From Clostridia bacterium (lineage in GTDB: Bacteria > Bacillota > Clostridia > Oscillospirales > CAG-272): DNA of 47,548 nucleotides. The notes beneath the pieces were generated by a model, which saw only the letters and a program-made list of their open reading frames with translations, was not told the DNA's origin and searched no databases. Of the stretch, positions 5,107 through 36,543 are shown one piece after another; positions within the stretch are counted from its first letter, which is position 1, and each line of letters starts with the position of its first letter. Where the stretch lies: assembly GCA_017631855.1 (NCBI GenBank), contig JAGBSP010000038.1, forward strand, positions 1 to 47,548, read 5' to 3'. A program made the position numbers and the translations under genes.

Positions 5107-5137
5107 TGTTTCACCCCCATGGACTTTGTTTTTTATT

Positions 5138-5166
5138 ATTATATCACAGACTTTTCTCAAAGTCAA
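5138..5166 (-). promoter_or_regulatory. Promoter of the LRR lipoprotein gene
   Basis: TTGACT (5161-5166) and TATAAT (5138-5143), 17 nt apart, read leftward into the lipoprotein gene. Confidence 0.82.
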
Positions 5167-17566: not shown

Positions 17567-17597
17567 AAAGCCATTTGCTTGTGCAAATGGCTTTTTT
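17567..17597 (+). terminator. Terminator after pit
   Basis: Stem AAAGCCATTTGC / GCAAATGGCTTT with a TTGT loop and a T tract, 25 nt past the stop codon. The gap up to the next promoter (17598-17759) shows nothing else recognisable. Confidence 0.9.
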
Positions 17598-17759: not shown

Positions 17760-17788
17760 TTGACAAAGCAAGGATAGTTTGATACAAT
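17760..17788 (+). promoter_or_regulatory. Promoter of the seven-gene GH20-like array
   Basis: TTGACA (17760-17765) and TACAAT (17783-17788), 17 nt apart, upstream of the first paralog. It is the only clear promoter found for the array. Confidence 0.82.
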
Positions 17789-17796
17789 GACCATAG

Positions 17797-17820
17797 TATT
17801 TAAAAATATATTTTTAAATA
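17797..17820. promoter_or_regulatory. 24-bp perfect palindrome, candidate operator
   Basis: The half-sites TATTTAAAAATA and TATTTTTAAATA are exact reverse complements with no spacer. The site covers roughly +2 to +25 of the predicted transcript, a position where a bound repressor would block initiation or escape. The AT-only composition weakens the case. Confidence 0.5.
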
Positions 17821-17851: not shown

Positions 17852-18805
17852 ATGAGTGAGCCTATGATCTGGAGCTATCTGATCCATCTTAGCACCCACA
17901 TGTGGGGGGACGGAAGCGAGCCCTCGCGGGAGTGGTATCCTTCCCGCTTTTACAGCGAAAACAACAACGTTGATCTCGCCGTTTGGGACGAGGTTGTATC
18001 TGTAATGGCAGACAGAAAATACAATATGATGATCGTCGACGTCGGCGATGCCGTTCAGTATGAGTCGCACCCCGAGATCTCCGCCCCCGATGCGTGGAGC
18101 AAGGATTTTCTGAAAAAGAAGCTCGACGAAATGAGAGCGCTCGGCATTGAGCCGATCCCGAAGCTGAATTTCTCTTGCGGTCACCACACCTGGCTCAAGC
18201 AATACAACCGTATGGTTTCGACACCGATCTACTATCAGGTCTGTGCCGATCTGATCAAGGAGGTCTGCGAGCTCTTTGGCTATCCTCGCCTCTTCCACCT
18301 CGGCTTTGACGAAGAAGTTCCCTATCAGCCGGGACTTGAAAAGGTGATGATCCGCGGAGAGAAGCTCTGGTGGCACGATCTCTTCTTTATGGCTGCTGAG
18401 TGCGAAAAGTACGGTGCCCGTCCGTGGGTATGGTCGGACTACTATTGGGATTTCCCCGAGGTCTTCAAGAAGAATATGCCCAAGTCGATCCTTCAGTCGA
18501 ACTGGTACTACTACCCTCTGATGGATCACCCCAAGGATTCGCGCCCCTATCTGCGCATTCACACCTACGAATATCTCGACGAGCTTGGCTACGATCAGGT
18601 GCCCACCAGCTCCTCTTGCCACGGCGCTCCGCAGAACAACCATCAGACGGTCGCCTACGCCAAGGACAAACTCACCCCCGAGCTGCTCAAGGGCTTTATG
18701 GTCGCTCCGTGGTATATGACGACACCCCAGACGCGCTACGCCCTTCTCAACGACGTTGACCGTCTGTACTATGCCCGCAAGGCAATTTATCCTGAAACTC
18801 TGTGA
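17852..18805 (+). CDS. GH20-like TIM-barrel protein, array copy 1
   Basis: A 317-residue protein resembling the catalytic barrel of glycoside hydrolase family 20. In order: MSEPMIWSYLIHLSTHMWGD; an early strand MMIVDVGDA followed by YESHPEI; PIPKLNFSCGHHTWL (about 101-115, counterpart of the GH20 IPEIDMPGH strand); LFHLGFDEEV with Asp153-Glu154 in the place of the GH20 HxGGDE catalytic pair; GARPWVWSDYYWD; ILQSNWYYY; and a terminal APW and YPETL. No signal peptide or membrane segment, so it should be cytoplasmic. Substrate unknown; N-acetylhexosaminide cleavage is the family expectation. Closest by eye to copy 2, which starts 8 nt downstream. Confidence 0.8.
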   Translation: MSEPMIWSYLIHLSTHMWGDGSEPSREWYPSRFYSENNNVDLAVWDEVVSVMADRKYNMMIVDVGDAVQYESHPEISAPDAWSKDFLKKKLDEMRALGIEPIPKLNFSCGHHTWLKQYNRMVSTPIYYQVCADLIKEVCELFGYPRLFHLGFDEEVPYQPGLEKVMIRGEKLWWHDLFFMAAECEKYGARPWVWSDYYWDFPEVFKKNMPKSILQSNWYYYPLMDHPKDSRPYLRIHTYEYLDELGYDQVPTSSSCHGAPQNNHQTVAYAKDKLTPELLKGFMVAPWYMTTPQTRYALLNDVDRLYYARKAIYPETL

Positions 18806-18813
18806 GGTAAATA

Positions 18814-19767
18814 ATGAGTGAACCGATGATCTGGAGCTATCTGCTCCACCTGAGTACGCATATGTGGGGCGACGAGCATTCGACTTCGAGTGGCTACTAT
18901 CTCCCCGATCCGTACACCCCCGAAAATAACGTGGATCTTGCCACCTGGGACGACACCGTCCGCGCGCTCGGCGAGAGAAACTACAATATGGTCATTATCG
19001 ACCTTGGCGACGCGGTCAAGTACGAGTCGCACCCCGAGATCTGCGCTCCCGATGCGTGGGACAAGGATTTCCTCAAAAAGAAGCTCGACGAAATGAGAGC
19101 ACTCGGCATCGAACCGATTCCGAAGCTGAATTTCTCGGCGTGCCATCATACTTGGCTGAAGGAATACACGAGAATGGTCTCCTCTCCGATCTACTACCGG
19201 GTCTGCGCCGATCTGATCAAAGAGGTCTGCGAGCTCTTTGGCAACCCGCGTCTCTTCCATCTTGGCTTTGACGAGGAGATCGAGCTTTTGCAGAGAAACC
19301 GCGAAAAGGTGATTGTCCGCGGAGAGAAGCTCTGGTTCCACGATCTCTTCTTCTTTGCCGCTGAATGCGAAAAGTACGGTGCGCGTCCGTGGATCTGGTC
19401 GGATTATTTCTGGCATCATCCCGATCAGTTCAAGAAGAATATGCCAAAGTCCATTCTCCAATCCAACTGGTTCTATAACACCTTCCAGGATTGGCCCGAG
19501 GGACACCGTTACCGCACCGCGATTGAAACCTATGACGCGCTCGACGAGCTCGGCTACGACCAAGTGCCGACAGGTTCAACCTGGAGCCGTCACAAAAACC
19601 TCTATCAGACGGTCGCCTACGCAAAAAACCGCTTAAATCCCGATCTTGTGAAGGGATTCATGACAGCGCCTTGGATCATGACGACAAGAGAAAATCGCTT
19701 CCGTCTTCTGGACGACGCCGACCGCCTCTTCGTTGCCCGTGAGAAGCTTTACCCCGAAACTCTTTAA
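18814..19767 (+). CDS. GH20-like TIM-barrel protein, array copy 2
   Basis: 317 residues, the same length as copy 1 and sharing its MSEPMIWSYL start, which points to a recent duplication. The catalytic-site motif is HLGFDEEI with Asp153-Glu154. It differs from the other copies in PKLNFSACHHTWL, where the usual Ser-Cys-Gly-His becomes Ser-Ala-Cys-His, and in the loop ELLQRNREKVIVRG after the Asp-Glu pair. It keeps GARPWIWSDYFWH, ILQSNWFYN and the final YPETL. The ribosome-binding site GAGGT overlaps the stop codon of copy 1, so translation is probably coupled. No export signal. Confidence 0.8.
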   Translation: MSEPMIWSYLLHLSTHMWGDEHSTSSGYYLPDPYTPENNVDLATWDDTVRALGERNYNMVIIDLGDAVKYESHPEICAPDAWDKDFLKKKLDEMRALGIEPIPKLNFSACHHTWLKEYTRMVSSPIYYRVCADLIKEVCELFGNPRLFHLGFDEEIELLQRNREKVIVRGEKLWFHDLFFFAAECEKYGARPWIWSDYFWHHPDQFKKNMPKSILQSNWFYNTFQDWPEGHRYRTAIETYDALDELGYDQVPTGSTWSRHKNLYQTVAYAKNRLNPDLVKGFMTAPWIMTTRENRFRLLDDADRLFVAREKLYPETL

Positions 19768-19799
19768 ACACACATAAAAAATAAGGAAGGTAACACACG

Positions 19800-20768
19800 A
19801 TGAATCACAAATTTATGTGGGCGTATCTCATTCACCTGAGTACGCATATGTGGCAGGATGAAACTGCCGAGCCGGGTGGCACTTGGTATGCAGGAAAACC
19901 TTACGATGAGAACAACAACGTTCACATGGAAACGTGGGATGCGACGATAAAGTATCTTGCCGAGTGCAAATACAACACGGTGCTCATCGACGTCGGCGAT
20001 GCTGTCAAGTACGAGTCGCACCCCGAGATCTCCGCCCCCGATGCGTGGGACAAGGATTTCCTCAAGAAGAAGCTCGACGAGATGAGAGCGCTTGGAATTA
20101 CCCCCATTCCGAAGCTCAACTTCTCCTGTGGCCATATGACCTGGCTCAAGGAATACACGAGAATGATTTCCACACCCACCTACTACAAGGTTTGTGCCGA
20201 TCTGATTAAGGAAGTCTGTGAGCTCTTTAATTCGCCCGAATACTTCCATATCGGATTTGACGAGGAAGTGGCAAGAAAGCAGGGCGGAAGAGAAAAGATC
20301 ATCATCCGCGGCGAGAAGCTTTGGTGGCACGATCTCTTCTATCTGGCAGGCGAGTGCGAAAAGAACGGCGCACGTCCTTGGATGTGGTCCGATTATTTCT
20401 GGGAGAGAGGCAACGAGGAGATTTTCCTGAAGAATATGTCAAAGTCGATTCTTCAGTCCAACTGGTTCTACCCCTACTTCCAGGAGTGGCCCGAGGATCA
20501 TCCCAAGCGCTACGGCTTCCGTATCAAGACCTACGAGATCTTTGACGAGATGGGCTACGATCAGGTTCCCACCGCATCGACGGTTCTCAACAATTTCAAC
20601 CCCGTTCAGACCTGTGCATTCTGTAAAGAAAAGCTCAATCCCGAGCACCTGCTTGGCATTATGACTGCTCCGTGGTTTATGACCACCGAGGCAAACAAGC
20701 ACTCGCTGATGAACGACGTATACCGTCTGTATCTCGGACGCAAGAAATACTATCCCGAAACACTTTGA
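19800..20768 (+). CDS. GH20-like TIM-barrel protein, array copy 3
   Basis: 322 residues. It starts MNHKFMWAYLIHLSTHMW. Key blocks are YNTVLIDVGDAVKYESHPEI (58-77), PIPKLNFSCGHMTWL (102-116), FHIGFDEEVARKQ with Asp154-Glu155, GARPWMWSDYFWERG (190-204), MSKSILQSNWFYP (213-225), a KRYGFRIKTYEIFDEMGYDQ stretch (236-255), TCAFCK (271-276) and TAPW. It is most like copy 4, including the WERG[NH]E segment and the FQEWPEDHPKRYG loop. A 32-nt gap with AAGGAAGGTAACACACG separates it from copy 2. The Cys-rich TCAFCK motif is shared with copies 4 and 5 only. Confidence 0.8.
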   Translation: MNHKFMWAYLIHLSTHMWQDETAEPGGTWYAGKPYDENNNVHMETWDATIKYLAECKYNTVLIDVGDAVKYESHPEISAPDAWDKDFLKKKLDEMRALGITPIPKLNFSCGHMTWLKEYTRMISTPTYYKVCADLIKEVCELFNSPEYFHIGFDEEVARKQGGREKIIIRGEKLWWHDLFYLAGECEKNGARPWMWSDYFWERGNEEIFLKNMSKSILQSNWFYPYFQEWPEDHPKRYGFRIKTYEIFDEMGYDQVPTASTVLNNFNPVQTCAFCKEKLNPEHLLGIMTAPWFMTTEANKHSLMNDVYRLYLGRKKYYPETL

Positions 20769-20785
20769 TTTTTAGGAGAAACACT

Positions 20786-21751
20786 ATGAAACACGATTTT
20801 ATGTGGGCATATCTCATTCATTTAAGCGCTCATATGTGGGGAGACGATACCTTTGTCACCCCCAGATGGTACTGTGAAAAATATTACAACGAGAATAACA
20901 ACGTACATATTCCTACTTGGGATGCGATGATGCAGTATCTTGCCGAGTGCAAGTACAACACGGTACTGATCGACGTCGGTGACGCTGTCAAGTACGAATC
21001 TCACCCCGAAATCTCCGCACCCGATGCGTGGGATAAGGATTTTCTGAAGAAGAAGCTCGACGAGATGAGAGCCCTCGGTCTTACTCCCATTCCGAAGCTC
21101 AATTTCTCCTGCGGTCACCATACCTGGCTCAAGCAGTACACCCGTATGGTCTCCTCGCCCATCTACTATCAGGTTTGCGCAGACCTCATCAAGGAGGTTT
21201 GCGAGCTCTTCGACTACCCCGAGTATTTCCATATCGGCTTTGACGAGGAAGTAGCAAGAAAACAAGGCAACGTCGAGAAAATCATCATTCGCGGTGAAAA
21301 GCTGTGGTGGAACGACCTCTTCTATCTGGCAGGCGAGTGCGAAAAGAACGGCGCACGTCCTTGGATGTGGTCCGACTATTTCTGGGAGAGAGGTCACGAG
21401 GATATCTTCCTGAAGAATATGTCCAAGTCGATCCTGCAGTCCAACTGGTTCTACCCCTTCTTCCAGGAATGGCCCGAGGATCATCCGAAGCGTTACGGCT
21501 TCCGTATCAAGACCTATGAAATCTTCGACGAGATGGGCTACGATCAGGTTCCCACCTGCTCGTCCTTCCTCAACTCGGTTAACCCCGTTCAGACCTGCGC
21601 CTTCTGCAAGGATAAGCTCAACCCCGAGCACCTCTTGGGTATTATGACAGCTCCATGGTTCAGAACCTACGAGGATAACAAGCTCTCTCTGATGAACGAT
21701 GCTTATCGGTTGTACTGGGGACGAAAAAAGCACTACCCCGAAACTCTGTAA
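20786..21751 (+). CDS. GH20-like TIM-barrel protein, array copy 4
   Basis: 321 residues from the ATG at 20786, which follows TTTTTAGGAGAAACACT. The frame is open further upstream inside copy 3, but that part is a shadow. Asp153-Glu154 lie in FHIGFDEEVARKQG. GARPWMWSDYFWERGHEDIF, the ILQSNWFYPFFQEWPEDHPK loop and NPVQTCAFCKDKLNPEHLLG make it nearly a twin of copy 3, with long stretches of identical DNA. It differs mainly in the surface loop at residues 20-36 (DDTFVTPRWYCEKYY) and in replacing MTTE by RTYE after TAPW. Intracellular by sequence. Confidence 0.8.
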   Translation: MKHDFMWAYLIHLSAHMWGDDTFVTPRWYCEKYYNENNNVHIPTWDAMMQYLAECKYNTVLIDVGDAVKYESHPEISAPDAWDKDFLKKKLDEMRALGLTPIPKLNFSCGHHTWLKQYTRMVSSPIYYQVCADLIKEVCELFDYPEYFHIGFDEEVARKQGNVEKIIIRGEKLWWNDLFYLAGECEKNGARPWMWSDYFWERGHEDIFLKNMSKSILQSNWFYPFFQEWPEDHPKRYGFRIKTYEIFDEMGYDQVPTCSSFLNSVNPVQTCAFCKDKLNPEHLLGIMTAPWFRTYEDNKLSLMNDAYRLYWGRKKHYPETL

Positions 21752-21801
21752 TCATGCCTTACGGCAAAAAATAAAAAACAAAAATTTTTGGAGGACAAAA
21801 A

Positions 21802-22773
21802 ATGAGACACGACATGATGTGGGCATATTTGATCCACCTCTCGACGCACATGTGGAGCGACGCTTCCTACAACGACAGAAACCCTCTGTGGTATTCCAAG
21901 CCCTTTTCTGAGAACAACAACGTGAATCTCGAGGTTTGGGATGAAACGGTCAAGTTCTTGGCAGAGCGTCAGTACAACACGCTTCTGATCGACCTTGGCG
22001 ACGCTGTCAAGTACGAGTCGCACCCCGAAATCTCCGCCCCCGATGCGTGGGATAAGGATTTCCTCAAGAAGAAGCTCGACGAGATGAGAGCTCTTGGTAT
22101 CACGCCCATTCCGAAGCTCAACTTCTCCTGCGGACACCACACCTGGCTCAAGCAGTACAACCGTATGGTTTCCTCGCCCATCTACTATCAGGTCTGCGCA
22201 GATCTGATCAAGGAAGTTTGCGAGCTGTTTGACTATCCCAAGTACTTCCACATCGGCTTTGACGAGGAAGTAGAGAGAAAGCAGCAGGACGTAGAAAAGG
22301 TCGTCTGCCGCGGACAGAAGCTCTGGTTCCACGATCTGTTCTTTATCGCAGGCGAGTGTGAAAAGTACGGCGCACGTCCCTGGATCTGGTCCGACTATTT
22401 CTGGGAGCCCGAAAACGAGAAGTACTTCCTCGAGCACATGTCCAAGTCGATCCTCCAGTCCAACTGGTACTACGATCACTTTATGGACTTCCCGGACAAC
22501 CATCCCAAGCGCTACGGCTTCCGTATCAAGACCTACGAGATCTTCGATGAAATGGGCTACGATCAGGTTCCTACCGCATCGGGCTGGCAGAAGACCGTAA
22601 ACCTCCATCACACCTGTGCATTCTGTAAGGATAAGCTGGACAACGAGCGTCTGCTTGGTATTATGGCTGCTCCGTGGGTATTCACCACCGAGACCGACAA
22701 GTACCGTCTCTTTGACGATGCTCACCGCCTCTACATTGGACGTAAAACCTACTTCCCCGAGACATTGAAGTAA
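21802..22773 (+). CDS. GH20-like TIM-barrel protein, array copy 5
   Basis: 323 residues, the longest copy, starting MRHDMMWAYLIHLSTHMWSD. The site motif is FHIGFDEEVERKQQ with Asp154-Glu155. In place of WERG it reads WEPENEKYFLEHMSKS, a form shared with copy 6. It has ILQSNWYYDHFMDFPDNHPK and HHTCAFCKDKLDNERLLG, so it links the copy 3/4 type to the copy 6 type. The tail is YFPETLK rather than YYPETL. It begins 50 nt after copy 4 with TTTTTGGAGGACAAAAA before the ATG, the strongest ribosome-binding site of the array. No signal peptide. Confidence 0.8.
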   Translation: MRHDMMWAYLIHLSTHMWSDASYNDRNPLWYSKPFSENNNVNLEVWDETVKFLAERQYNTLLIDLGDAVKYESHPEISAPDAWDKDFLKKKLDEMRALGITPIPKLNFSCGHHTWLKQYNRMVSSPIYYQVCADLIKEVCELFDYPKYFHIGFDEEVERKQQDVEKVVCRGQKLWFHDLFFIAGECEKYGARPWIWSDYFWEPENEKYFLEHMSKSILQSNWYYDHFMDFPDNHPKRYGFRIKTYEIFDEMGYDQVPTASGWQKTVNLHHTCAFCKDKLDNERLLGIMAAPWVFTTETDKYRLFDDAHRLYIGRKTYFPETLK

Positions 22774-22790
22774 TTCTGAGGTAACACACT

Positions 22791-23753
22791 ATGGCAAACG
22801 AAATGATTTGGGCGTCGCTCGTGCATCTGAGCCGCCATATGTGGTCGGATGACTCCTGTGAACCGCTTTGGTATCTTGATCCTCCGTACAATCCCTGCAA
22901 TGAGATCGATCTCGACTGTTGGGATCAGTATATGAAGTTCACTGCCGAGAAGCAGTTCAACACGGTCGTCATTGACCTCGGCGATGCCGTCAAGTACGAA
23001 TCTCACCCCGAAATCTCTGCCCCCGATGCGTGGAGCAAGGATTTTCTCAAGAAGAAGCTCGACGAGCTCCGCGCACTCGGCATCACGCCCATTCCGAAGC
23101 TCAATTTCTCCTGCGGTCATATGACCTGGATGAAAGAATACAACCGTATGGTTTCCTCGCCCGCGTACTATCAGTTCTGCGCCGATCTGATCAAAGAGGT
23201 TTGCGAGCTTTTCGGTTATCCCAAGCTCTTCCACATCGGCTTTGACGAAGAAGTCGCAAGAAAGCAGCCCTACGAAAAGGCGGTCGTCCGCGGCGAAAAG
23301 CTCTGGTGGAACGATCTCTTCTTCATCTGCCGTGAGTGTGAGAAGCACGGTGCAAGACCGTGGATGTGGAGTGACTATTTTTGGGAACCCGAGAACGAGC
23401 AGATCTTCCTCAAAAATATGTCCAAAACGATTTTGCAGTCCAACTGGTACTACGACCGCTTCCAGGAATGGCCTGACAACCACCCGAAGCGCTACGGCTT
23501 CCGTATCAAGACCTACGAAATCTTCGACGAAATGGGTTACGATCAGGTTCCGACCAGCTCGACTTGGCAGTATAAGATGAATTCCGAGCAGACGGTTGCC
23601 TTCTGTAAAGATCGCCTGAACCCCGAACATCTCAAAGGATTTATGACGGCGGCTTGGAAGTACACCGACGAGGGAGATCTCTATTCGCTGATGAATGATG
23701 CACAGCGTCTCTACCTCGGAAGAAAGAAACATTACCCCGAAACCTTAAAATAA
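22791..23753 (+). CDS. GH20-like TIM-barrel protein, array copy 6
   Basis: 320 residues starting MANEMIWASLVHLSRHMWSD. The Asp152-Glu153 pair is in FHIGFDEEVARKQP. Its N-terminal loop (SCEPLWYLDPPYNPCNEIDLDCWD) is the most Cys-rich of the set and lacks the ENNNV motif of copies 1-5. It shares WEPENEQIFLKNMSKTILQ with copy 5. The late region reads SEQTVAFCKDRLNPEHLKGFMTAAW, with TAAW instead of TAPW, as in copy 7. A TTCTGAGGTAACACACT site precedes it, 17 nt after copy 5. Changes cluster in loops expected to line the active-site mouth, suggesting altered substrate preference. Confidence 0.8.
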   Translation: MANEMIWASLVHLSRHMWSDDSCEPLWYLDPPYNPCNEIDLDCWDQYMKFTAEKQFNTVVIDLGDAVKYESHPEISAPDAWSKDFLKKKLDELRALGITPIPKLNFSCGHMTWMKEYNRMVSSPAYYQFCADLIKEVCELFGYPKLFHIGFDEEVARKQPYEKAVVRGEKLWWNDLFFICRECEKHGARPWMWSDYFWEPENEQIFLKNMSKTILQSNWYYDRFQEWPDNHPKRYGFRIKTYEIFDEMGYDQVPTSSTWQYKMNSEQTVAFCKDRLNPEHLKGFMTAAWKYTDEGDLYSLMNDAQRLYLGRKKHYPETLK

Positions 23754-23778
23754 AAAATAAAATTAGGAGAATCCAAAA

Positions 23779-24747
23779 ATGAAACACGATATGTTATGGT
23801 GCGCGTTTGTTTATCTGAGCGATCACCAGTGGGATGACGCTTCCAGCGCTCCCCGCGGCTGGTATCTGAAGCCGAGCTATAATGAAAACAACTCTACCGA
23901 AGTCGAGGCTTGGGACGACTATATGAAGTTCCTTGCCGAGCGCAAATACAATTCGGCGATCATCGACCTCGGCGACGCGATCAAGTACGAATCTCACCCC
24001 GAGATTTCGGCACCCAACGCTTGGACCAAGGATTTTATGAAGCAGAAGCTCGACGAGATGAGAGCCCTCGGCATTATGCCGATCCCGAAGCTCAACTTCT
24101 CCTGCGGTCACATGACCTGGATGAAGCAGTATAACCGTATGGTTTCCTCGCCTGCCTACTATCAGTTCTGCGCCGATATCATCAAAGAGGTTTGCGAGCT
24201 CTTCGACTACCCCGAGTATTTCCACATCGGATTTGACGAGGAAGTCGAGAGAAAGCAGGTAACCTTCGAAAAGGTCGTCGTCAGAGCGCGTGATCTCTGG
24301 TGGCACGATTTCTTCTATATCGCAGGCGAATGCGAAAAGCACGGCGCAAGACCGATGTGCTGGGCAGACTATATGTGGGAGAGAGGACACGAGCAGCTGT
24401 ATCTTGACAGAATGTCGAAGTCGGTCGTTCAGATGAACTGGTTCTATCAGACCTTCACCGAGTACCCCGAAACGCATCCGAAGCGTTACGACTTCCGCAT
24501 CAAGTCCTACGAGCTTCTCAACGAGCGCGGATTTGATCAGATTCCCACCTGCTCGTCCTATCAGTGTCAGGTCAACGCATACCAAACGGTTGCCTTCTGT
24601 AAGGAAAAATTGGATCCCACCCTTCTCAAGGGCTTCTTGACGGCAGCTTGGTCGAGAACCACCGAGGCAGATCAGTACTTCTTCAAGAACGACGCACACC
24701 GCTTGTATCTTGCAAGAAAAGCACTCTACCCCGAAACGCTGAAGTAA
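23779..24747 (+). CDS. GH20-like TIM-barrel protein, array copy 7 (most divergent)
   Basis: 322 residues starting MKHDMLWCAFVYLSDHQWDD, so the HLSxHMW motif of the other copies has become YLSDHQW. The core is retained: YESHPEISAPNAW, PIPKLNFSCGHMTWM and FHIGFDEEVERKQ with Asp153-Glu154. Further on it departs: GARPMCWADYMWERG for GARPWMWSDYFWE, SVVQMNWFYQ for SILQSNWFY, RYDFRIKSYELLNERGFDQI for RYGFRIKTYEIFDEMGYDQV. The loss of the Trp in GARPW and the Gln-to-Met context before NW may reshape the pocket. It is 25 nt after copy 6 and is followed by the array terminator. Confidence 0.8.
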   Translation: MKHDMLWCAFVYLSDHQWDDASSAPRGWYLKPSYNENNSTEVEAWDDYMKFLAERKYNSAIIDLGDAIKYESHPEISAPNAWTKDFMKQKLDEMRALGIMPIPKLNFSCGHMTWMKQYNRMVSSPAYYQFCADIIKEVCELFDYPEYFHIGFDEEVERKQVTFEKVVVRARDLWWHDFFYIAGECEKHGARPMCWADYMWERGHEQLYLDRMSKSVVQMNWFYQTFTEYPETHPKRYDFRIKSYELLNERGFDQIPTCSSYQCQVNAYQTVAFCKEKLDPTLLKGFLTAAWSRTTEADQYFFKNDAHRLYLARKALYPETLK

Positions 24748-24762
24748 AAACAAAAAAAAATT

Positions 24763-24793
24763 GCCCTTGCGCCAAATGGCGCAAGGGCTTTTT
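24763..24793. terminator. Bidirectional terminator closing the GH20-like array
   Basis: Perfect stem GCCCTTGCGCC / GGCGCAAGGGC with an AAAT loop, a T tract on the plus side and a long A tract before it. It ends the array and, on the minus strand, the ABC exporter operon, whose stop codon is 3 nt away. Confidence 0.93.
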
Positions 24794-28726: not shown

Positions 28727-30127
28727 TTACACGGTATGAATTCCGAGTGCTTTATCTGCGTGCTCGGCGTCAATGCCGTATTTTTTTGCTTTGCGGTACT
28801 CAAAGAACTTGAGTGCTACCTGCTCAAAGAGCGCGTAGGAGAGGACGTCCTCTTCCTGCTCCATATAGGGCTTGATCTTCTCACGAAGTGCGTCAAGCTC
28901 GGGAGCGAGTGCGTCTGCGGGGCGCTCGGTGATACGCTCTGCGTCGCCAATGATCTTCTTTGCGAAGTCGTCGTCGATTGCTACGGGCGTCTTACCGTAC
29001 TGACCCTGAACCAGTCCCTTGAATTCCTTCGTTACCATCTTATAGCGTTCACCGCCGATGACGTTGAACACTGCCTGCGTTCCAACGATCTGCGAGGAGG
29101 GCGTAACGAGCGGTGCGTAACCCGAATCGGCACGAACTCTCGGTACTTCCTCGAGCACGTCGATCAGCTTATCCGACTTTCCTGCCTGCTTGAGCTGAGA
29201 AACGAGGTTGGAGAGCATTCCGCCCGGCACCTGATAGATCAGCGCGTTGACGTCGACCTTGAGCATCTTGGGGTCAAGCTGTCCGCTTGCCAAATACTTC
29301 TCACGAATCGGAGAGAAATACTTCGTGATCTCGTCAAGCTTTGCAAGATCAATGCCCGTGTCGTGCTCAGTACCCGCCAGCGTTGCGACGAGCGACTCGG
29401 TGGGCGGCTGAGAGGTACCCATTGCCATCGGAGAGATCGCGGTATCTACCACGTCAACGCCCGCCTCGATTGCCTTAAGAAGGGTCATCGAAGCAAGTCC
29501 CGAGGTGTAGTGGGTATGCAGCTGAATCGGAACCTTGACGGTTTCCTTAAGTGCCTTGACGAGCTCATACGCATCGTACGGCTTGAGAAGTCCCGACATA
29601 TCCTTGATACAGATCGAGTGCGCACCCATATCCTCGAGCGTCTTTGCATAGCTCGTAAAATATTCGGTGGTATAGATCTTGTTTTCGGGATCGGTCGTAT
29701 AGCAGATCGCCGCCTGCACGTGTCCGTTTTCCTTGATGGTTGCATTGATTGCAGTTTCAAGGTTACGGGGATCGTTCAAAGCATCGAAAATTCGAAGAAT
29801 ATCGATACCGTTGGCAATCGATTTCTGCACGAAATATTCCACCACGTCGTCAGAATAATGGCGGTAGCCGAGAATATTCTGTCCGCGGAAGAGCATCTGA
29901 AGCTTGGTGTTCTTTACCTCGGCGCGAATCTTACGCAGTCTTTCCCACGGATCCTCATTGAGGAAGCGCAAGCAAGAGTCAAAGGTTGCTCCGCCCCATG
30001 CTTCGAGCGAATGATATCCGATACCATCCAGCTTTGCGAGGATCGGAAGCATATCTTCGGTCGTCATTCTCGTCGCGATCAGCGATTGATGCGAGTCGCG
30101 GAGAACGGTTTCTGTAATCTTTACCAT
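28727..30127 (-). CDS. oadA: Oxaloacetate decarboxylase alpha / pyruvate carboxylase carboxyltransferase subunit
   Basis: A 466-residue protein with the DRE-TIM carboxyltransferase fold: TETVLRDSHQSLIATRM at the start, EAWGGATFDSCLRFLNEDPWERLR, MLFRGQNILGYRHY, RIFDALND, the biotin-lysine-binding CIKDMSGLL stretch, and the metal-binding HTHYTSG. It moves CO2 between carboxybiotin and pyruvate/oxaloacetate. It has no C-terminal biotin domain; the biotin carrier is a separate gene (31380-31787), as in split systems. Last gene of the five-gene operon, 21 nt after oadB, and followed by a strong terminator. Confidence 0.94.
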   Translation of the reverse strand: MVKITETVLRDSHQSLIATRMTTEDMLPILAKLDGIGYHSLEAWGGATFDSCLRFLNEDPWERLRKIRAEVKNTKLQMLFRGQNILGYRHYSDDVVEYFVQKSIANGIDILRIFDALNDPRNLETAINATIKENGHVQAAICYTTDPENKIYTTEYFTSYAKTLEDMGAHSICIKDMSGLLKPYDAYELVKALKETVKVPIQLHTHYTSGLASMTLLKAIEAGVDVVDTAISPMAMGTSQPPTESLVATLAGTEHDTGIDLAKLDEITKYFSPIREKYLASGQLDPKMLKVDVNALIYQVPGGMLSNLVSQLKQAGKSDKLIDVLEEVPRVRADSGYAPLVTPSSQIVGTQAVFNVIGGERYKMVTKEFKGLVQGQYGKTPVAIDDDFAKKIIGDAERITERPADALAPELDALREKIKPYMEQEEDVLSYALFEQVALKFFEYRKAKKYGIDAEHADKALGIHTV

Positions 30128-30148
30128 TTCTTTTTCCTCCTAAACAAA

Positions 30149-31327
30149 TCACCAAACCCACGACAGGAAAACACCTGCCGCAACGGCAGAGCCGATAACG
30201 CCTGCCACGTTGGGTCCCATTGCGTGCATCAAAAGGAAGTTCGAGGGATCTTCATCCTGACCTACCTTTTGTGATACGCGCGCCGCCATCGGAACGGCGG
30301 AAACGCCTGCCGAGCCAATGAGCGGATTGATCTTACCGCCCGACAGCCAGTTCATCAGCTTTGCGGTCAAAAGTCCGCCGCAGGTCGAGATGCAGAAGGC
30401 AACCAGACCGAGCGCGATGATGAGAAGCGTCTGCACTCTCAGGAAATTCTCGGCACTTGCCGTAGCGCCAACCGTAATGCCGAGGAAGATCGTGACGATA
30501 TTCATCAGCTCGTTCTGTGCCGTCTTGGACAGACGGTCGGTCACACCGCAGACGTTGAGAAGGTTACCGAACATCAAGCAACCAACCAGCGGTACGGCAT
30601 CGGGAATGATCATACCGACGATGAAGGTTACGACGATCGGGAACAGAATCTTCTCGGTCTTGGATACCTGACGAAGTGCGCTCATTTTGATCTGGCGCTC
30701 CTTCTTTGTGGTAAGTAATTTCATAAAGCGCGGCTGAATCATAGGGATCAGCGCCATGTAGCTATACGCTGCGATTGCAATTGCGCCAAGCAATGCGGGG
30801 GCGAGCGTTTTGGTTACGAGAATTGCCGTCGGTCCGTCCGCGCCACCGATAATACCGATCGAGGCAGCCTCCTGCGGAGAGAAGAAGCCCGAAAGAAGCG
30901 CTCCCGAGAAGGCAACGAAAACGCCAAGCTGTGCGCCCGCACCAATGAGAAGGCTCTTGGGATTCGAGATCAGCGGAGAGAAGTCGGTCATCGCGCCAAT
31001 GCCCATAAAAATCAAACAGGGGTAGATACCGAGCTTTACTCCCATATACAGAAGATCCAAAAGTCCACCCTCGTGAAGCACTTGGGAGTAACTGATCTCC
31101 TCTGCGATAAACAAGTCCAGATGGAACATATTTGCGCCGGGAAGATTGGTCAGAAGCATTCCAATGGCGATCGGAAGCAACAACAGCGGCTCAAATTTTT
31201 TCACAATCGCCAGATATACGAGAACAAAGGCGATCAGGAACATAATGGCGGTCTGCCACCAGGTTTCATTGGCAAACAGTCGGGCAACGCCTGTGGTTTC
31301 TAAGAAATTCTTTAAGCTTTCCAGCAT
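30149..31327 (-). CDS. oadB: Na+-translocating decarboxylase beta subunit
   Basis: A 392-residue integral membrane protein of the OadB/MmdB/GcdB family, with nine or more hydrophobic segments. Family marks are GIGAMTDFSPLISNPKSLLIGAGAQLG and the ion-channel motif GIIGGADGPTAI with its conserved Asp, and a C-terminal GPNVAGVIGSAVAAGVF. It decarboxylates carboxybiotin and couples this to outward Na+ transport. It lies between the biotin carrier and the oadA gene. Confidence 0.95.
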   Translation of the reverse strand: MLESLKNFLETTGVARLFANETWWQTAIMFLIAFVLVYLAIVKKFEPLLLLPIAIGMLLTNLPGANMFHLDLFIAEEISYSQVLHEGGLLDLLYMGVKLGIYPCLIFMGIGAMTDFSPLISNPKSLLIGAGAQLGVFVAFSGALLSGFFSPQEAASIGIIGGADGPTAILVTKTLAPALLGAIAIAAYSYMALIPMIQPRFMKLLTTKKERQIKMSALRQVSKTEKILFPIVVTFIVGMIIPDAVPLVGCLMFGNLLNVCGVTDRLSKTAQNELMNIVTIFLGITVGATASAENFLRVQTLLIIALGLVAFCISTCGGLLTAKLMNWLSGGKINPLIGSAGVSAVPMAARVSQKVGQDEDPSNFLLMHAMGPNVAGVIGSAVAAGVFLSWVW

Positions 31328-31379
31328 TTCCTACCGTTTTCCTTTCGATGAATTTAAAATTGTACGTTCGTCGGGAAAA

Positions 31380-31787
31380 TCAGTTGAGGGTAACGAGTAC
31401 TGCGTCGGTTTCAACCGTCGCGCCCTGAGCAACCTCAACGCTTGCTACCGTTCCGTCCTGAGGAGCGCAGATGTCGTTTTCCATCTTCATTGCCTCAAGA
31501 ACGATGAGAACGTCACCCTTCTTAACTGCTGCGCCAACCTTTGCGTTGACCTTCATAATGTTACCGGGCATCGGAGCCTTGACGGCAACTGCGCCTGCCG
31601 TACCAGCCGAAGCGGGAGCTGCTGCGGGTGCGGGAGCTGCTGCAGGAGCGGGAGCTGCAACGGGTGCGGGAGCCGCAACGGGTGCGGGAGCTGCATATAC
31701 GGGAGCTGCAACGGGTGCGCCGCCTGCTACCTCTTCTACGCTGACTACGTAAGTGACGCCATTAACAGTAATATTGTAAGTTTTCAT
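31380..31787 (-). CDS. Biotin carboxyl carrier protein of the Na+ pump
   Basis: A 135-residue biotin carrier. The short N-terminal segment MKTYNITVNGVTYVVSVEEV is typical of decarboxylase gamma/BCCP subunits. An Ala/Pro-rich flexible linker follows (about residues 23-62, repeats of APVAAPAP), then the biotinyl domain with the EAMKME motif, biotinylated Lys at 101, 34 residues from the C-terminus as expected. It shuttles carboxyl groups between the two carboxyltransferases and OadB. The repeat linker gives the DNA a visible GCGGGAGCTGC periodicity, which should not be mistaken for a satellite. Confidence 0.94.
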   Translation of the reverse strand: MKTYNITVNGVTYVVSVEEVAGGAPVAAPVYAAPAPVAAPAPVAAPAPAAAPAPAAAPASAGTAGAVAVKAPMPGNIMKVNAKVGAAVKKGDVLIVLEAMKMENDICAPQDGTVASVEVAQGATVETDAVLVTLN

Positions 31788-31827
31788 TGTGAATACCTAA
31801 CCTTTCAAAATAATATTTATTGAAGTT

Positions 31828-32253
31828 TTATTTTTTCGAATTCCAAGAGCGTCTACCCGATGCTCTGCGGAAAGAAACGACGCGGAATGCTCCGCTCTCG
31901 CCCTCTGCCTCACGGTAGGCAGAAACCGCCGCCGTCAGTACGGCAACCAATTCTTTTTCTTGATCCGCTCGGTATGCCTCAAGTCCTGCCGCGATCACCG
32001 CTTGCAGTACGTCGTCGGAGCTTCCCGTGGGTTCGGGAGCTTTCTTTGCTACCTTCGCCTCTTTCTTCGGCTTTGCTTCCTTTGGGGTTTTTCCTGCAAA
32101 TACAAGCTTAAAGATCGCAAGAACTGCCCAAAGAATGGCAAGAACCGAGAAAACCATCAGCATTCCGATGAGCGTCATTTTTCCTGCATACGCCCAGCGT
32201 TCTGCCGAAAACGCGCCGCCGAGCTCTGCCGATAATGCCATCATCATATTCAT
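31828..32253 (-). CDS. OadG-like small membrane subunit
   Basis: A 141-residue protein with one N-terminal membrane helix, KMTLIGMLMVFSVLAILWAVLAIFKLVF (about 25-52), then a Lys/Ala/Glu-rich linker and a soluble tail that includes ISAYREAEG-like AVSAYREAEGES. This is the layout of the OadG/MmdD gamma/delta subunits, which hold the decarboxylase complex at the membrane. Assignment relies strongly on position: 13 nt upstream is the mmdA-like gene and 40 nt downstream the biotin carrier. The tail ends in FRRASGRRSWNSKK. Confidence 0.85.
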   Translation of the reverse strand: MNMMMALSAELGGAFSAERWAYAGKMTLIGMLMVFSVLAILWAVLAIFKLVFAGKTPKEAKPKKEAKVAKKAPEPTGSSDDVLQAVIAAGLEAYRADQEKELVAVLTAAVSAYREAEGESGAFRVVSFRRASGRRSWNSKK

Positions 32254-32266
32254 TCCAAGCCTCCCA

Positions 32267-33631
32267 TCAGAGCGGCAATGCCGTATGCTTTCTTGTGGGA
32301 GCGCCCTCCGCTTTTGCGGAAAGCATTGCGAGCGACGCGCAAATTCTCTGGCGAAGCTCCGAGGGATCGATCAGGTCGTCGATCTCGCCTGCGTCACACG
32401 CAACTGCCGCCGATGCGCACTTCTCTTTCCATTCACTCTCAAGCTCTTCGCGGGAAACCTCACCGACACGGTCGTTCCATACGAAGGCAACCGACGCCTC
32501 GGGAGAGAGGACGCTGATGCACGCCGTGGGAAGCGCAAACGCGAGATCCGCGCCCACCGACTTCGAGCCGAGAAGCGTAAATGCCGTTCCGTATGCCTTG
32601 CCGAGCACCACGGTAACCTTTGCGCATTCCGAAGAGGTATATGCCATTGCAAGACGGGCAAGCTCGGATGCGTACGCCGCGTTCTCTGCCTCGTTCGAGG
32701 CGTCAAGTCCCTCGCTGTCAACCAGCGTCAGCACGGGAATCGAGAAAGCGTCGCAGAAGCTGAGAAGCTTCGTAGCGGCTCTTGCCGTCTTGATATCGAG
32801 AATTCCCTTCTTTTTGGGGTCGCACGCAATCACACCAGCCACAACGCCGCCAAAGGAAGCAAATCCAAAGCGCGCGTTCTCCGCATAGTCGCGATACAGT
32901 GCCGTAAAGCTTCCATCGTCCGAAAGATCCGAAAGAAGCGTGTCTACGTCGTAGTCGGAAGCAACCGAGATCTTACGGTTCAGGTCATCCGATCCCGTGC
33001 CGCAAGCCATATCGGCGTTGTTCTGAGGAAGCATTGCAAGAAGCTCCTTGACAAACGCAAACGCCTCTGCCTCGTTTTCCGTTTCCTTTGCCGCAAGGCC
33101 AAGCGTCGAAGCTCGATCTGCCTTGCCCACCGTAAAGGGTGCGCTCACAAAGAATTCGGAGGTTTCCTTCACCGTTACCACAAAATCAAACATCGAAGCC
33201 GCTACCGCCGCCGCTCCTCCGCAAATGCCGTCGATCACGGCGATCTGGGGGATGACGCCCGATGCGTCCGAAATGTTTTTCATCAGCGAGCCGTATGCCG
33301 CAAGCGCCGTCGCTCCGTCGTATACCGACGCTCCCGCGCTGTCAAACACACCAATCACAGGTGCGCCGTTCTTCACGGCAAGCGCATACAGCGATGCGAT
33401 CTTCTTTGCCTGACGTTCGCCGAAGACGCCCTTGGTGCGTCCGCTGTCTTGCAGAAATGCAAAAGCGAGCGCGCCGCCCACCGCACCGTATCCGCACACC
33501 ACACCTGCAAGGTCGGTTTCGGCATCGGAGCGTTTGAGATAGGCACCAAGCTCTACAAAAGTACCCGCATCAAACAGCGACTCCAAACGAGCCTTTGACA
33601 CGCCGTACGATTTTTCGTCAAATTGTACCAT
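32267..33631 (-). CDS. Acyl-CoA carboxyltransferase (MmdA-like)
   Basis: A 454-residue protein of the acetyl/propionyl-CoA carboxyltransferase beta family. It starts SKARLESLFDAGTFVELGAY and so lacks about 30-50 residues found at the N-terminus of MmdA or PccB (usually about 510). Motifs include KKIASLYALAVKNGAPVIGVFDSAGA, the oxyanion loop GGAAAVAASMFDFVV, and in the second half KKKGILDIKTARAATKLLSFCDAFSIPVLTLVDSEG. It is divergent, so the CoA substrate (methylmalonyl-CoA or other) is not certain. First gene of the operon; promoter at 33712-33740. Confidence 0.87.
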   Translation of the reverse strand: MVQFDEKSYGVSKARLESLFDAGTFVELGAYLKRSDAETDLAGVVCGYGAVGGALAFAFLQDSGRTKGVFGERQAKKIASLYALAVKNGAPVIGVFDSAGASVYDGATALAAYGSLMKNISDASGVIPQIAVIDGICGGAAAVAASMFDFVVTVKETSEFFVSAPFTVGKADRASTLGLAAKETENEAEAFAFVKELLAMLPQNNADMACGTGSDDLNRKISVASDYDVDTLLSDLSDDGSFTALYRDYAENARFGFASFGGVVAGVIACDPKKKGILDIKTARAATKLLSFCDAFSIPVLTLVDSEGLDASNEAENAAYASELARLAMAYTSSECAKVTVVLGKAYGTAFTLLGSKSVGADLAFALPTACISVLSPEASVAFVWNDRVGEVSREELESEWKEKCASAAVACDAGEIDDLIDPSELRQRICASLAMLSAKAEGAPTRKHTALPL

Positions 33632-33711
33632 AAAATTGCCTCCGTTCGTTGGTTTCGGGAGATTTTTTCAGATTTACTTTTCAATAAATCATTCTCCCCG
33701 ATTATACTATT

Positions 33712-33740
33712 ATGTTATCATATTCCGTTCTGTTTTGCAA
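33712..33740 (-). promoter_or_regulatory. Probable promoter of the decarboxylase operon
   Basis: TTGCAA (33735-33740) and TAACAT (33712-33717), 17-nt spacer, about 80 nt upstream of the first start codon. The boxes are weaker than those of neighbours; a second TATAAT-like box lies slightly downstream without a matching -35. Confidence 0.55.
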
Positions 33741-33881
33741 GATTATCGGCAGAGTTCATTTGTTAACTTTATATGAACATCCAAACATCCCGCCCAAGAT
33801 TTTTGGTAATTGCTCATATCTTACCCCAAAGCCTCATAAATATGTATTACGACACATCACAAAGGAAAGGGCGCAATACCT

Positions 33882-34337
33882 ATGAGCTACGGAGCAACCC
33901 AACATCATCGAAAAAAAGCCACCTCCGCCGAAGAAGGAGCTTCTCTATCAAAAATTTTTCAAAGTGCCACCATTGGCGTGGGCGCGTCTTTGCTTTGCGC
34001 CGCGGTCTTGCTTTTGGTCGGTGCACTAATCTGTCAACGTTCGCAGGATCCAAACAAAATGACGCTCCCGCTAGGACTCGTATCACTCTATCTCTCTGCC
34101 CTGCTCGGCGGAATTGTCGCCGTGCGCCACCGCGGATCCTCGGCGCTCTTGTGCGGTGCAGTCTGCGGAATTCTTCTGCTCGTCTTCTTTTGGATCGTTT
34201 CGATCTTTTTCGGAGACAGCGACGCCTTTTCCCTGCCGCTCTCACTTTTTCTTCGCTGTTTTACGGCATTCTTCTCGATTCTCGGTGCATATCTCGGACT
34301 GAAGCGGAGCAAAAGATCCCCACATCGAAAACGATAA
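33882..34337 (+). CDS. TIGR04086-type small membrane protein
   Basis: A 151-residue protein with a charged N-terminus, then four hydrophobic segments near residues 28-50, 62-82, 86-110 and 118-140, and a basic tail KRSKRSPHRKR. The layout matches the TIGR04086 family of clostridial membrane proteins, whose function is not known. An AAAGGAAAGGG site lies about 10-15 nt before the ATG. It stands alone between the decarboxylase operon and hppA and has its own terminator. Confidence 0.75.
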   Translation: MSYGATQHHRKKATSAEEGASLSKIFQSATIGVGASLLCAAVLLLVGALICQRSQDPNKMTLPLGLVSLYLSALLGGIVAVRHRGSSALLCGAVCGILLLVFFWIVSIFFGDSDAFSLPLSLFLRCFTAFFSILGAYLGLKRSKRSPHRKR

Positions 34338-34366
34338 AAAAGAGCAAGAAAAATCTTGCTCTTTTT
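34337..34366. terminator. Bidirectional terminator between the small membrane protein gene and hppA
   Basis: Stem AAAAAGAGCAAGA / TCTTGCTCTTTTT with a short A loop, directly after the TAA of the plus-strand gene and 22 nt beyond the hppA stop. Confidence 0.9.
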
Positions 34367-34388
34367 GTTTTGCTATAAATTATGTAAA

Positions 34389-36476
34389 TTAAAGGATAGA
34401 ACATGCTACGACGAGCGAAGCAAATACGATCGACACCATCGAGAGAAGCTTGATTAGGATATTGATGGAGGGTCCCGCGGTATCCTTAAAAGGATCTCCC
34501 ACCGTATCACCGACAACTGCCGCCTTGTGATTATCCGATCCCTTACCGCCGAAGTGATCGTTTTCGATGTACTTCTTCGCGTTATCCCAAGCGCCGCCCG
34601 AGTTGGACATAAAGACTGCCATCAAAAAGCCCGATGCCGTAGCACCTGCGAGCATTCCAACGACGCCCGTCGGTCCGAGAACCATTCCAACGATGACAGG
34701 AACGACGATCGCTACGAGTGTAGGAACGATCATCTCACGCAGACTAGCCTTCGTACAAAGGTCCACACAGCTTGCGTAATCCGCATCAGCTTCGCCCTCC
34801 ATCAGTCCGCGAATTTCTCTAAACTGACGGCGAACCTCCTTGACAACGCTCTGCGCCGCACGTCCAACCGCATTCATGGTGAGTGCCGCAAATACGAAGG
34901 GCAAACAAGCTCCGATAAAGAGTCCCACAAGCACGGCAGGATTCATGATCGAAAGATTTGCAATCTTTTCCACACCGCCGTCAATTCCGTTGATCTTATC
35001 AATGTAAGACACCATCAGTGCCAGTGCCGTCAGAGCCGCCGAGCCAATGGCAAACCCCTTACCCGTTGCCGCTGTGGTGTTTCCAAGAGAGTCGAGCGCG
35101 TCGGTTCTTTCTCTGACCTTTTCGTCAAGTCCCGCCATCTGCGCAATACCACCCGCGTTATCTGCGATCGGTCCGTAAGCATCGGTCGCCAGCGTAATAC
35201 CGAGTGTGGAGAGCATACCAACTGCCGCAAGAGCAATTCCGTAAAGTCCCATCGCAGCGCTCGTAGCGCCACCCGACACAAAATATGCGACGAGCACGCA
35301 GACCGAAACAATCACGATCGGAAGAAGCGTAGAGAGCATACCGACCGACAGACCTCCAATGATAATCGTCGCCGTACCCGTTTCACTTGTTGCTGCAAGA
35401 TTTTTGGTCGGCTTATAGCTATCCGAGGTGTAATATTCGGTTACCTGACCGATCAGCACACCACCGATAAGTCCGGCAAAAATTGCAAAATACATTGCCC
35501 AATGCTCTGCACCCAGCACGAAATATACGAGTGGGAAGGAAGCAATTGCGATCAAAATCGCAGAAAAATTCGTTCCGCGGGAGAGCGAACGAAGCAGTTG
35601 CTTCTGAGTTGCGCCCTCTTTCGTACGAACGAGGAAGGTGCCGAAGATCGAGCAAACGATACCGAGTGCCGCAATCAGCATCGGAAGCAGCATTGCCTTA
35701 ATGCTGTGCATTGCCGCAACGCCGAGCGCACAAGCCGAAATGACCGAGCCAACGTAGGACTCATAAAGGTCAGCACCCATTCCCGCAACGTCACCGACAT
35801 TGTCACCGACATTGTCTGCAATCACCGCGGGGTTACGAGGGTCATCCTCGGGAATACCTGCCTCAACCTTACCGACAAGGTCTGCACCAACGTCCGCCGC
35901 CTTAGTAAAGATACCTCCGCCAACGCGTGCAAAAAGCGCCATCGAGGACGCACCCATACCGAAGGTCAGCATCGCTGCCGTAATTTCCGCTGCTTCCAGA
36001 CGGAAAACAAATTTCAAAAGAGCGAACCAAACCGAAATGTCAAAGAGTCCAAGACCGACAACAGTAAATCCCATAACGCTTCCCGCCGAGAAAGCGACAC
36101 GAAGTCCCTTGTTCAGTCCCTCTTGGCAAGCGTTTGCCGTTCTTGCATTGGCACTCGTTGCGATCTTCATTCCGATAAAACCAGAAAGTGCCGAAAAAAC
36201 GCCACCGGTCAGGAAAGCAAAGGGCGTGTACCAGCTCAAAAGTCCGATGACCGCCATCACGATCAACACGGTGAACATAATGGCAAAAAAGATCGCTACA
36301 ATGCGGTACTGGCGTTTGAGATAGGCATTCGCTCCCTGACGGATGAACGCCGAGATCTTTTTCATTTTGTCGGATCCCTCGGAGAATTTCAATACCTTCT
36401 TTGCCGTAAAAAGCGCATACAGAAGCGCGATGATCGCCGCTGCAAAGGCAAGAATGGAAACAATCGTTTCAATCAT
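34389..36476 (-). CDS. hppA: K+-dependent membrane pyrophosphatase (Na+ or H+ pump)
   Basis: A 695-residue membrane protein with about sixteen helices. Diphosphate-binding sequences are [38 protein letters not shown] and the C-terminal DNAKKYIEN...[21 protein letters not shown]. The segment [14 protein letters not shown] has Ala where K+-independent enzymes have Lys, so this is the K+-dependent class; YESYVGS after MGADL fits too. It uses pyrophosphate hydrolysis to pump Na+ and/or H+; which ion cannot be decided by eye. I use ATG 36476, which follows GAGGAAGAAACTT; an in-frame ATG 15 nt upstream lacks a ribosome-binding site. Confidence 0.95.
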
Positions 36477-36543
36477 AAGTTTCTTCCTCATTTAAAAATG
36501 ATATTTTTTTTGCGAAAATTGATTTGTTTTTACTATAAATGAT

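Follow-up and report, generated by a model that had tools for sequence, protein, structure and literature searches.

A Tandem Array of Seven GH20-Like Genes

A contig of 47,548 nucleotides from a gut-dwelling Clostridia bacterium of the CAG-272 lineage (Oscillospirales; JAGBSP010000038.1 of assembly GCA_017631855.1), which we call the window, carries seven tandem genes for paralogous proteins that resemble glycoside hydrolases of family 20 (GH20). An earlier note, made from the sequence alone, had described seven head-to-tail genes of 317-323 codons, and the coordinates of the open reading frames (ORFs) bear this out: all lie on the + strand, with gaps of 8, 32, 17, 50, 17, and 25 nt from copy 1 to copy 7. 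Copy 1 (17852..18805) and copy 2 (18814..19767) encode 317 amino acids (aa) each, copy 3 (19800..20768) 322, copy 4 (20786..21751) 321, copy 5 (21802..22773) 323, copy 6 (22791..23753) 320, and copy 7 (23779..24747), the most divergent, 322. A Shine-Dalgarno-like purine run is present within 20 bases 5' of the ATG in all seven. The mechanical ORF start of copy 4, a GTG at 20672, overlaps copy 3; the likely start is the ATG at 20786, which is preceded by AGGAG.

The array lies between a PhoU-like/Pit phosphate transporter gene pair upstream and, downstream, a convergent pair of genes that encode ABC ATPase domains. A stem-loop at 17567..17594, which resembles a terminator on the - strand and has T's after it on the + strand as well, closes the Pit gene and parts the two transcription units. 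It is followed on the + strand by a putative extended -10 promoter of the sigma-70 type (TTGACA-17-TACAAT, 17760..17788), a consensus match of 11/12 positions with TG. Directly behind the -10 box is a perfect, AT-rich 24-bp palindrome (17797..17820) for which none is expected in shuffles of the window, and which is probably an operator. It occurs once in the source genome (1.83 Mb, 67 contigs, 85.5% complete) even with up to three mismatches, so that no regulon could be drawn. Behind copy 7, an 11-pair stem followed by TTTTT (24763..24788, + strand) has the form of an intrinsic terminator, for the convergent ABC gene as well as for the array. The proposal of one promoter and one terminator thus finds good sites in the right places, but such sites are no more frequent than in shuffles (six consensus promoters against 6.4 expected, nine terminators against 8.0), and a further promoter match (10/12) lies within the array at 22637-22664. 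For these reasons a single promoter is an inference from the quality and position of the two sites.

Chance or an assembly artefact can be dismissed, because the copies are only 55-86% identical with high synonymous change and because a contig of the same genus (G301:C76) is collinear with the ABC side. This contig ends inside the 3' end of a copy-7-like gene beside the same ABC pair and shows only that end of any array in G301; the array site is therefore at least partly shared between the two genomes.

Relation to GH20

All seven copies keep the H-[IL]-G-F-D-E-E motif with its Asp-Glu pair intact, as well as PIPKLNFS and YESHPEI. The GARP(W)xW strand, also proposed to be common to all, is found in copies 1-6, but copy 7 has GARPMCW. 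The suggested kinship with GH20 is upheld by the predicted fold but not by the Pfam threshold. None of the copies reaches the gathering score of PF00728 (22.3 bits), the best being copy 7 (21.3) and copy 3 (19.2), and a Pfam scan gave no PF00728 match for the other five. Structure prediction for copy 3 gave a (beta/alpha)8 barrel of GH20 type and not another fold. The first barrel strand of this model starts from residue 6, and the presumed catalytic pair D154-E155 follows strand 148-152 at the end of strand 4, as judged from the residue positions in the model. No GH20b domain, as found in GH20 Model A proteins, precedes the barrel, and PF02838 had no match in the Pfam scan. Across 113 aligned family rows, H112, H150, D154, E155, W196, Y224, and W292 are each conserved in 105-109; apart from the Asp-Glu pair, their correspondence to residues of SpHex is our assumption.

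GH20 hexosaminidases are described as having a conserved Arg and Asp/Glu at subsite -1 (R162 and E444 in SpHex), the Arg being replaced by Gln in LnbB (PMC4449183). In none of the window copies does the first strand contain Arg, and in copy 6 one stands just behind it (LSRHMW). Two residues after W292, copies 1-7 have M, M, M, R, F, Y, and R, and the eight commonest residues at this position, which cover 89 of the 113 rows, include no acid.

The closest known proteins are the single-domain Model B members of GH20, namely the Treponema denticola lacto-N-biosidase (9fyl/9fym), which is among the best structural matches of the copy 3 model, Niako3494 (8bal), and the dispersins. The window copies differ from them in being at most 21% identical, in falling below the Pfam cut-off, in forming seven paralogues in one operon, and in having no counterpart that we could find for the two subsite -1 residues. 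We therefore class the family as GH20-like, on the strength of its predicted fold and catalytic pair, and not as a full member of GH20. It is real, conserved, and recurrent, and its novelty lies in its layout and pocket, not in its kind. The earlier note had called the layout unfamiliar, and our literature search likewise gave no title or opening abstract describing such an array; nor did we find a characterized member of this branch.

Divergence of the Seven Copies

Pairwise identity among the copies ranges from 55.5 to 85.9% (21 pairs), with synonymous change (pS) of 0.51-0.71 and nonsynonymous change (pN) of 0.086-0.308, indicating old duplications kept by purifying selection. Divergence is greater in the loops of the pocket rim: the number of residue types per position is highest in loop L7 (4.43), high in L1 (3.07), and low in L2 and L3. 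Rim residues are retained at 84% in two clear orthologue pairs and at 35-68% in five window paralogue pairs. These figures are no more than suggestive of rim-specific diversification among the copies.

The seven copies are not monophyletic in a quick tree of 79 family rows. L038 is the partner of copy 1 (support 100) and a gene of L131 that of copy 6 (97), copy 7 groups with L131 and L043 genes (97), copies 3, 4, and 5 fall together (97), and copy 2 is placed close to copy 1, L038, and L039 (94). L038 and L131 come from different contigs of a single genome belonging to another genus. Copies 1 and 6 share 88 and 91% identity with their orthologues (pS 0.48 and 0.61), as compared with 80% for S-adenosylmethionine synthetase. 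These cross-genus orthologues of single copies imply that the copy types either predate the present array or have been exchanged between genera.

Distribution of the Family and Related Arrays

The family is patchily distributed. Counting the source genome throughout, it is present in 6 of 30 genomes at genus level, 41 of 295 at the level of the taxonomic family, 24 of 394 at that of the order, and 6 of 391 in the class sample. Copy counts for the last three samples are lower bounds, since no more than seven or five candidates per genome were scored. Among 54 named loci, 30 are labelled as Clostridia types, and many of their titles mention a ruminant host; the remainder are mostly Bacteroidota, together with Armatimonadota, Ereboglobus, Phycisphaerae/Planctomycetota, and a Bathyarchaeota bin. 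One contig from a metagenome-assembled genome labelled Clostridiales (L071) shares its gene layout with Petrimonas (L072), and its label may therefore be wrong. RRxFxK/R motifs, which resemble Tat signals, occur in 11 of 18 N-termini, all 11 from Bacteroidota or the Phycisphaerae bin (loci L064, L067, L068, L069, L072, L074, L079, L084, L087, and L090). Unlike these members, the window copies begin at the barrel.

As for mobility, copy 3 had no tblastn match at 1e-5 among 50,697 phage and 72,556 plasmid records, and the 20 other window proteins scanned, a part of the window ORFs, included no mobile genes. Counting the source genome, 4 of the 30 genus genomes have the flanking Pit gene (E 1e-30) and 11 have the ABC gene (E 1e-100). 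Both are present in just one further genome, G264, where they lie on separate contigs, and so no clean empty site was obtained.

A search for similar arrays, as the earlier note had advised, recovered several of the same family. G449, of the same order and another taxonomic family, has seven tandem copies (L123:4968-11838), and G533, the only other genome sampled in the genus of G449, has at least six (L124:147-6037, on a 7,072-base contig). Smaller arrays occur in G263 (three), G436 (three), G032 (two), and others. A search of the loci with a 116-row profile found no family members beyond the known-row copies and short pieces; in L049, a 326-aa ORF that lies on the same strand between two family genes and was considered as an altered copy had no match to it.

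The two large arrays resemble that of the window in tandem order and gene length, but differ in their Asp-Glu pairs and tree branches. The pair is intact in 106 of 113 family rows, and six of the seven exceptions lie in these arrays: three of seven in L123 (SC, DD, GD) and three of six in L124 (AN, GE, GD), the other being L036 (EE). Writing A for intact and P for altered, the order of transcription is A A P A P P A in L123 and A P A P P A in L124, in agreement over the last six genes. No internal stops were found in these 13 genes. The six altered copies form one group (SH-aLRT 99), but their branches are long and their placement is hence unsure. Between the two genomes they are 38-42% identical (pS 0.74-0.75, saturated), as against 58-59% for the intact ones. 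L123_6922 keeps its Asp and changes only E to D, and L124_2080 keeps its Glu. The intact G449 and G533 genes fall outside the clade of the window copies, so the arrays of the two lineages arose separately unless the tree is wrong.

Possible Function of the Array

The interpretation offered in the earlier note, GH20-like proteins acting as a battery or as a complex of several subunits, finds support in part. At about even odds (roughly 0.5), we favor a battery of intracellular glycosidases of differing specificity. The array would be one operon for seven single-domain enzymes of GH20 fold, each using the Asp-Glu pair, probably with substrate assistance, on an N-acetylhexosaminide or related bond. 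The copies would share a common catalytic core and differ in the rim loops L1, L4, L6, L7, and L8; as these loops differ, each copy probably has its own amino-sugar oligosaccharide as substrate, imported or recycled. All seven would probably be switched together by a repressor bound to the palindrome that follows the -10 box.

Several observations weigh against this. The outer helices a1, a5, and a8 (2.9-3.1 residue types) match loop L1 in variability, and an orthologue-like pair, L131b-L043b, retains 67% of the rim and 89% of the rest, as do paralogues 3 and 4 (68 and 89%); rim divergence is therefore no sure sign of new specificity. No counterpart of the conserved Arg (strand 1) and Asp/Glu (strand 8) is found in the sequence alignment, so that ordinary terminal GlcNAc or GalNAc may not be the substrate. 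The operon contains no transporter, kinase, or deacetylase genes, and in Clostridia the family has no constant neighbor, the commonest Pfam family occurring in 7 of 89 neighbors scanned. A pure battery also leaves unexplained the altered Asp-Glu copies in the arrays of two relatives.

These altered copies speak for a rather unlikely alternative, in which the seven proteins assemble as subunits into one or several hetero-oligomeric GH20-like enzymes, their barrels pairing and completing each other's active sites, with dedicated non-catalytic subunits having evolved in the sister arrays. By analogy, it recalls the alpha and beta chains of human HexA, a GH20 heterodimer which differs in being a two-domain, lysosomal enzyme. 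HexA, HexB, and OfHex1 are described as dimerizing through their GH20 catalytic domains so that a partner completes the active site (PMC4449183). The shared A P A P P A order and the freedom from internal stops speak for this reading, the operon order and near-constant length suit co-assembly, and since the altered copies of two species form one group, they persist. However, all seven window copies are intact, and the family occurs as a single copy at many other loci (with short flanks and lower-bound counts), so a partner is not obligatory; the greater divergence and long branches of the altered copies suit relaxed selection as well, and two of them retain the Asp or the Glu. Active and inactive glycosidase paralogues are kept together in leaf beetle GH28, as reported in PMC6549527, which offers an analogy for the sister arrays only, from another family and organism. 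We found no paper linking a GH20 hexosaminidase with a pseudoenzyme. In a modular variant, which we think unlikely, paralogous subunits would combine into a multi-specific cytoplasmic complex, each lending rim loops to its neighbor's pocket, all catalytic in the window lineage and some dedicated non-catalytic partners in G449 and G533.

The absence of Arg from the first strand, the varied residues two after W292, the Gln of LnbB, and the structural match to the Treponema lacto-N-biosidase would all suit proteins that keep the fold and the Asp-Glu pair but, through an altered subsite -1, cleave another bond or bind sugar, like a disaccharide-releasing N-biosidase or a sugar sensor; we consider this quite improbable. 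Least probable of all is an amplification for gene dosage, with all copies doing one job and their number only raising the amount of enzyme: the tandem arrangement and the 86% identity of copies 3 and 4 fit it, but identity in all other pairs is 55.5-73.4% at a pS above 0.5, which makes them old, and orthologues of single copies persist in another genus.

Whichever applies, the family marks out a GH20-like branch that is widespread and whose pocket seems altered. Its arrays form a natural library for the divergence of glycosidase specificity by tandem duplication, and they let one ask whether prokaryotes build heteromeric GH20 enzymes with pseudoenzyme subunits.

Genomic Neighbors and Other Features

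Outside Clostridia, some neighborhoods give hints of function. That of L072 includes TonB/SusD, a classical GH20 (42.8 bits, with GH20b just below the cut-off), SIS, Gfo/Idh, and SSF, and that of L069 includes PIG-L, GNAT, and PfkB. In the non-clostridial set of 86 neighbors, Gfo/Idh occurs in eight, SusD in four, and SIS_2 in three. The Bacteroidota loci fit amino-sugar glycan catabolism, though far from constantly. The commonest neighbor family of this set is Ceramidase_alk (10 of 86); four of these proteins score 27.6-38.6 bits around the cut-off of 32.1, and we do not take them to indicate function. In L069 (6922-12401), the family gene is surrounded by three proteins of 467-496 aa with weak similarity to ceramidases.

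Elsewhere in the window, a BspA-type leucine-rich repeat protein is encoded at 2290-5166, and an oxaloacetate decarboxylase-like set (PYC_OADA, OAD_beta, biotin carrier, and carboxyl transferase) adjoins an H+-pyrophosphatase at 28727-36491.
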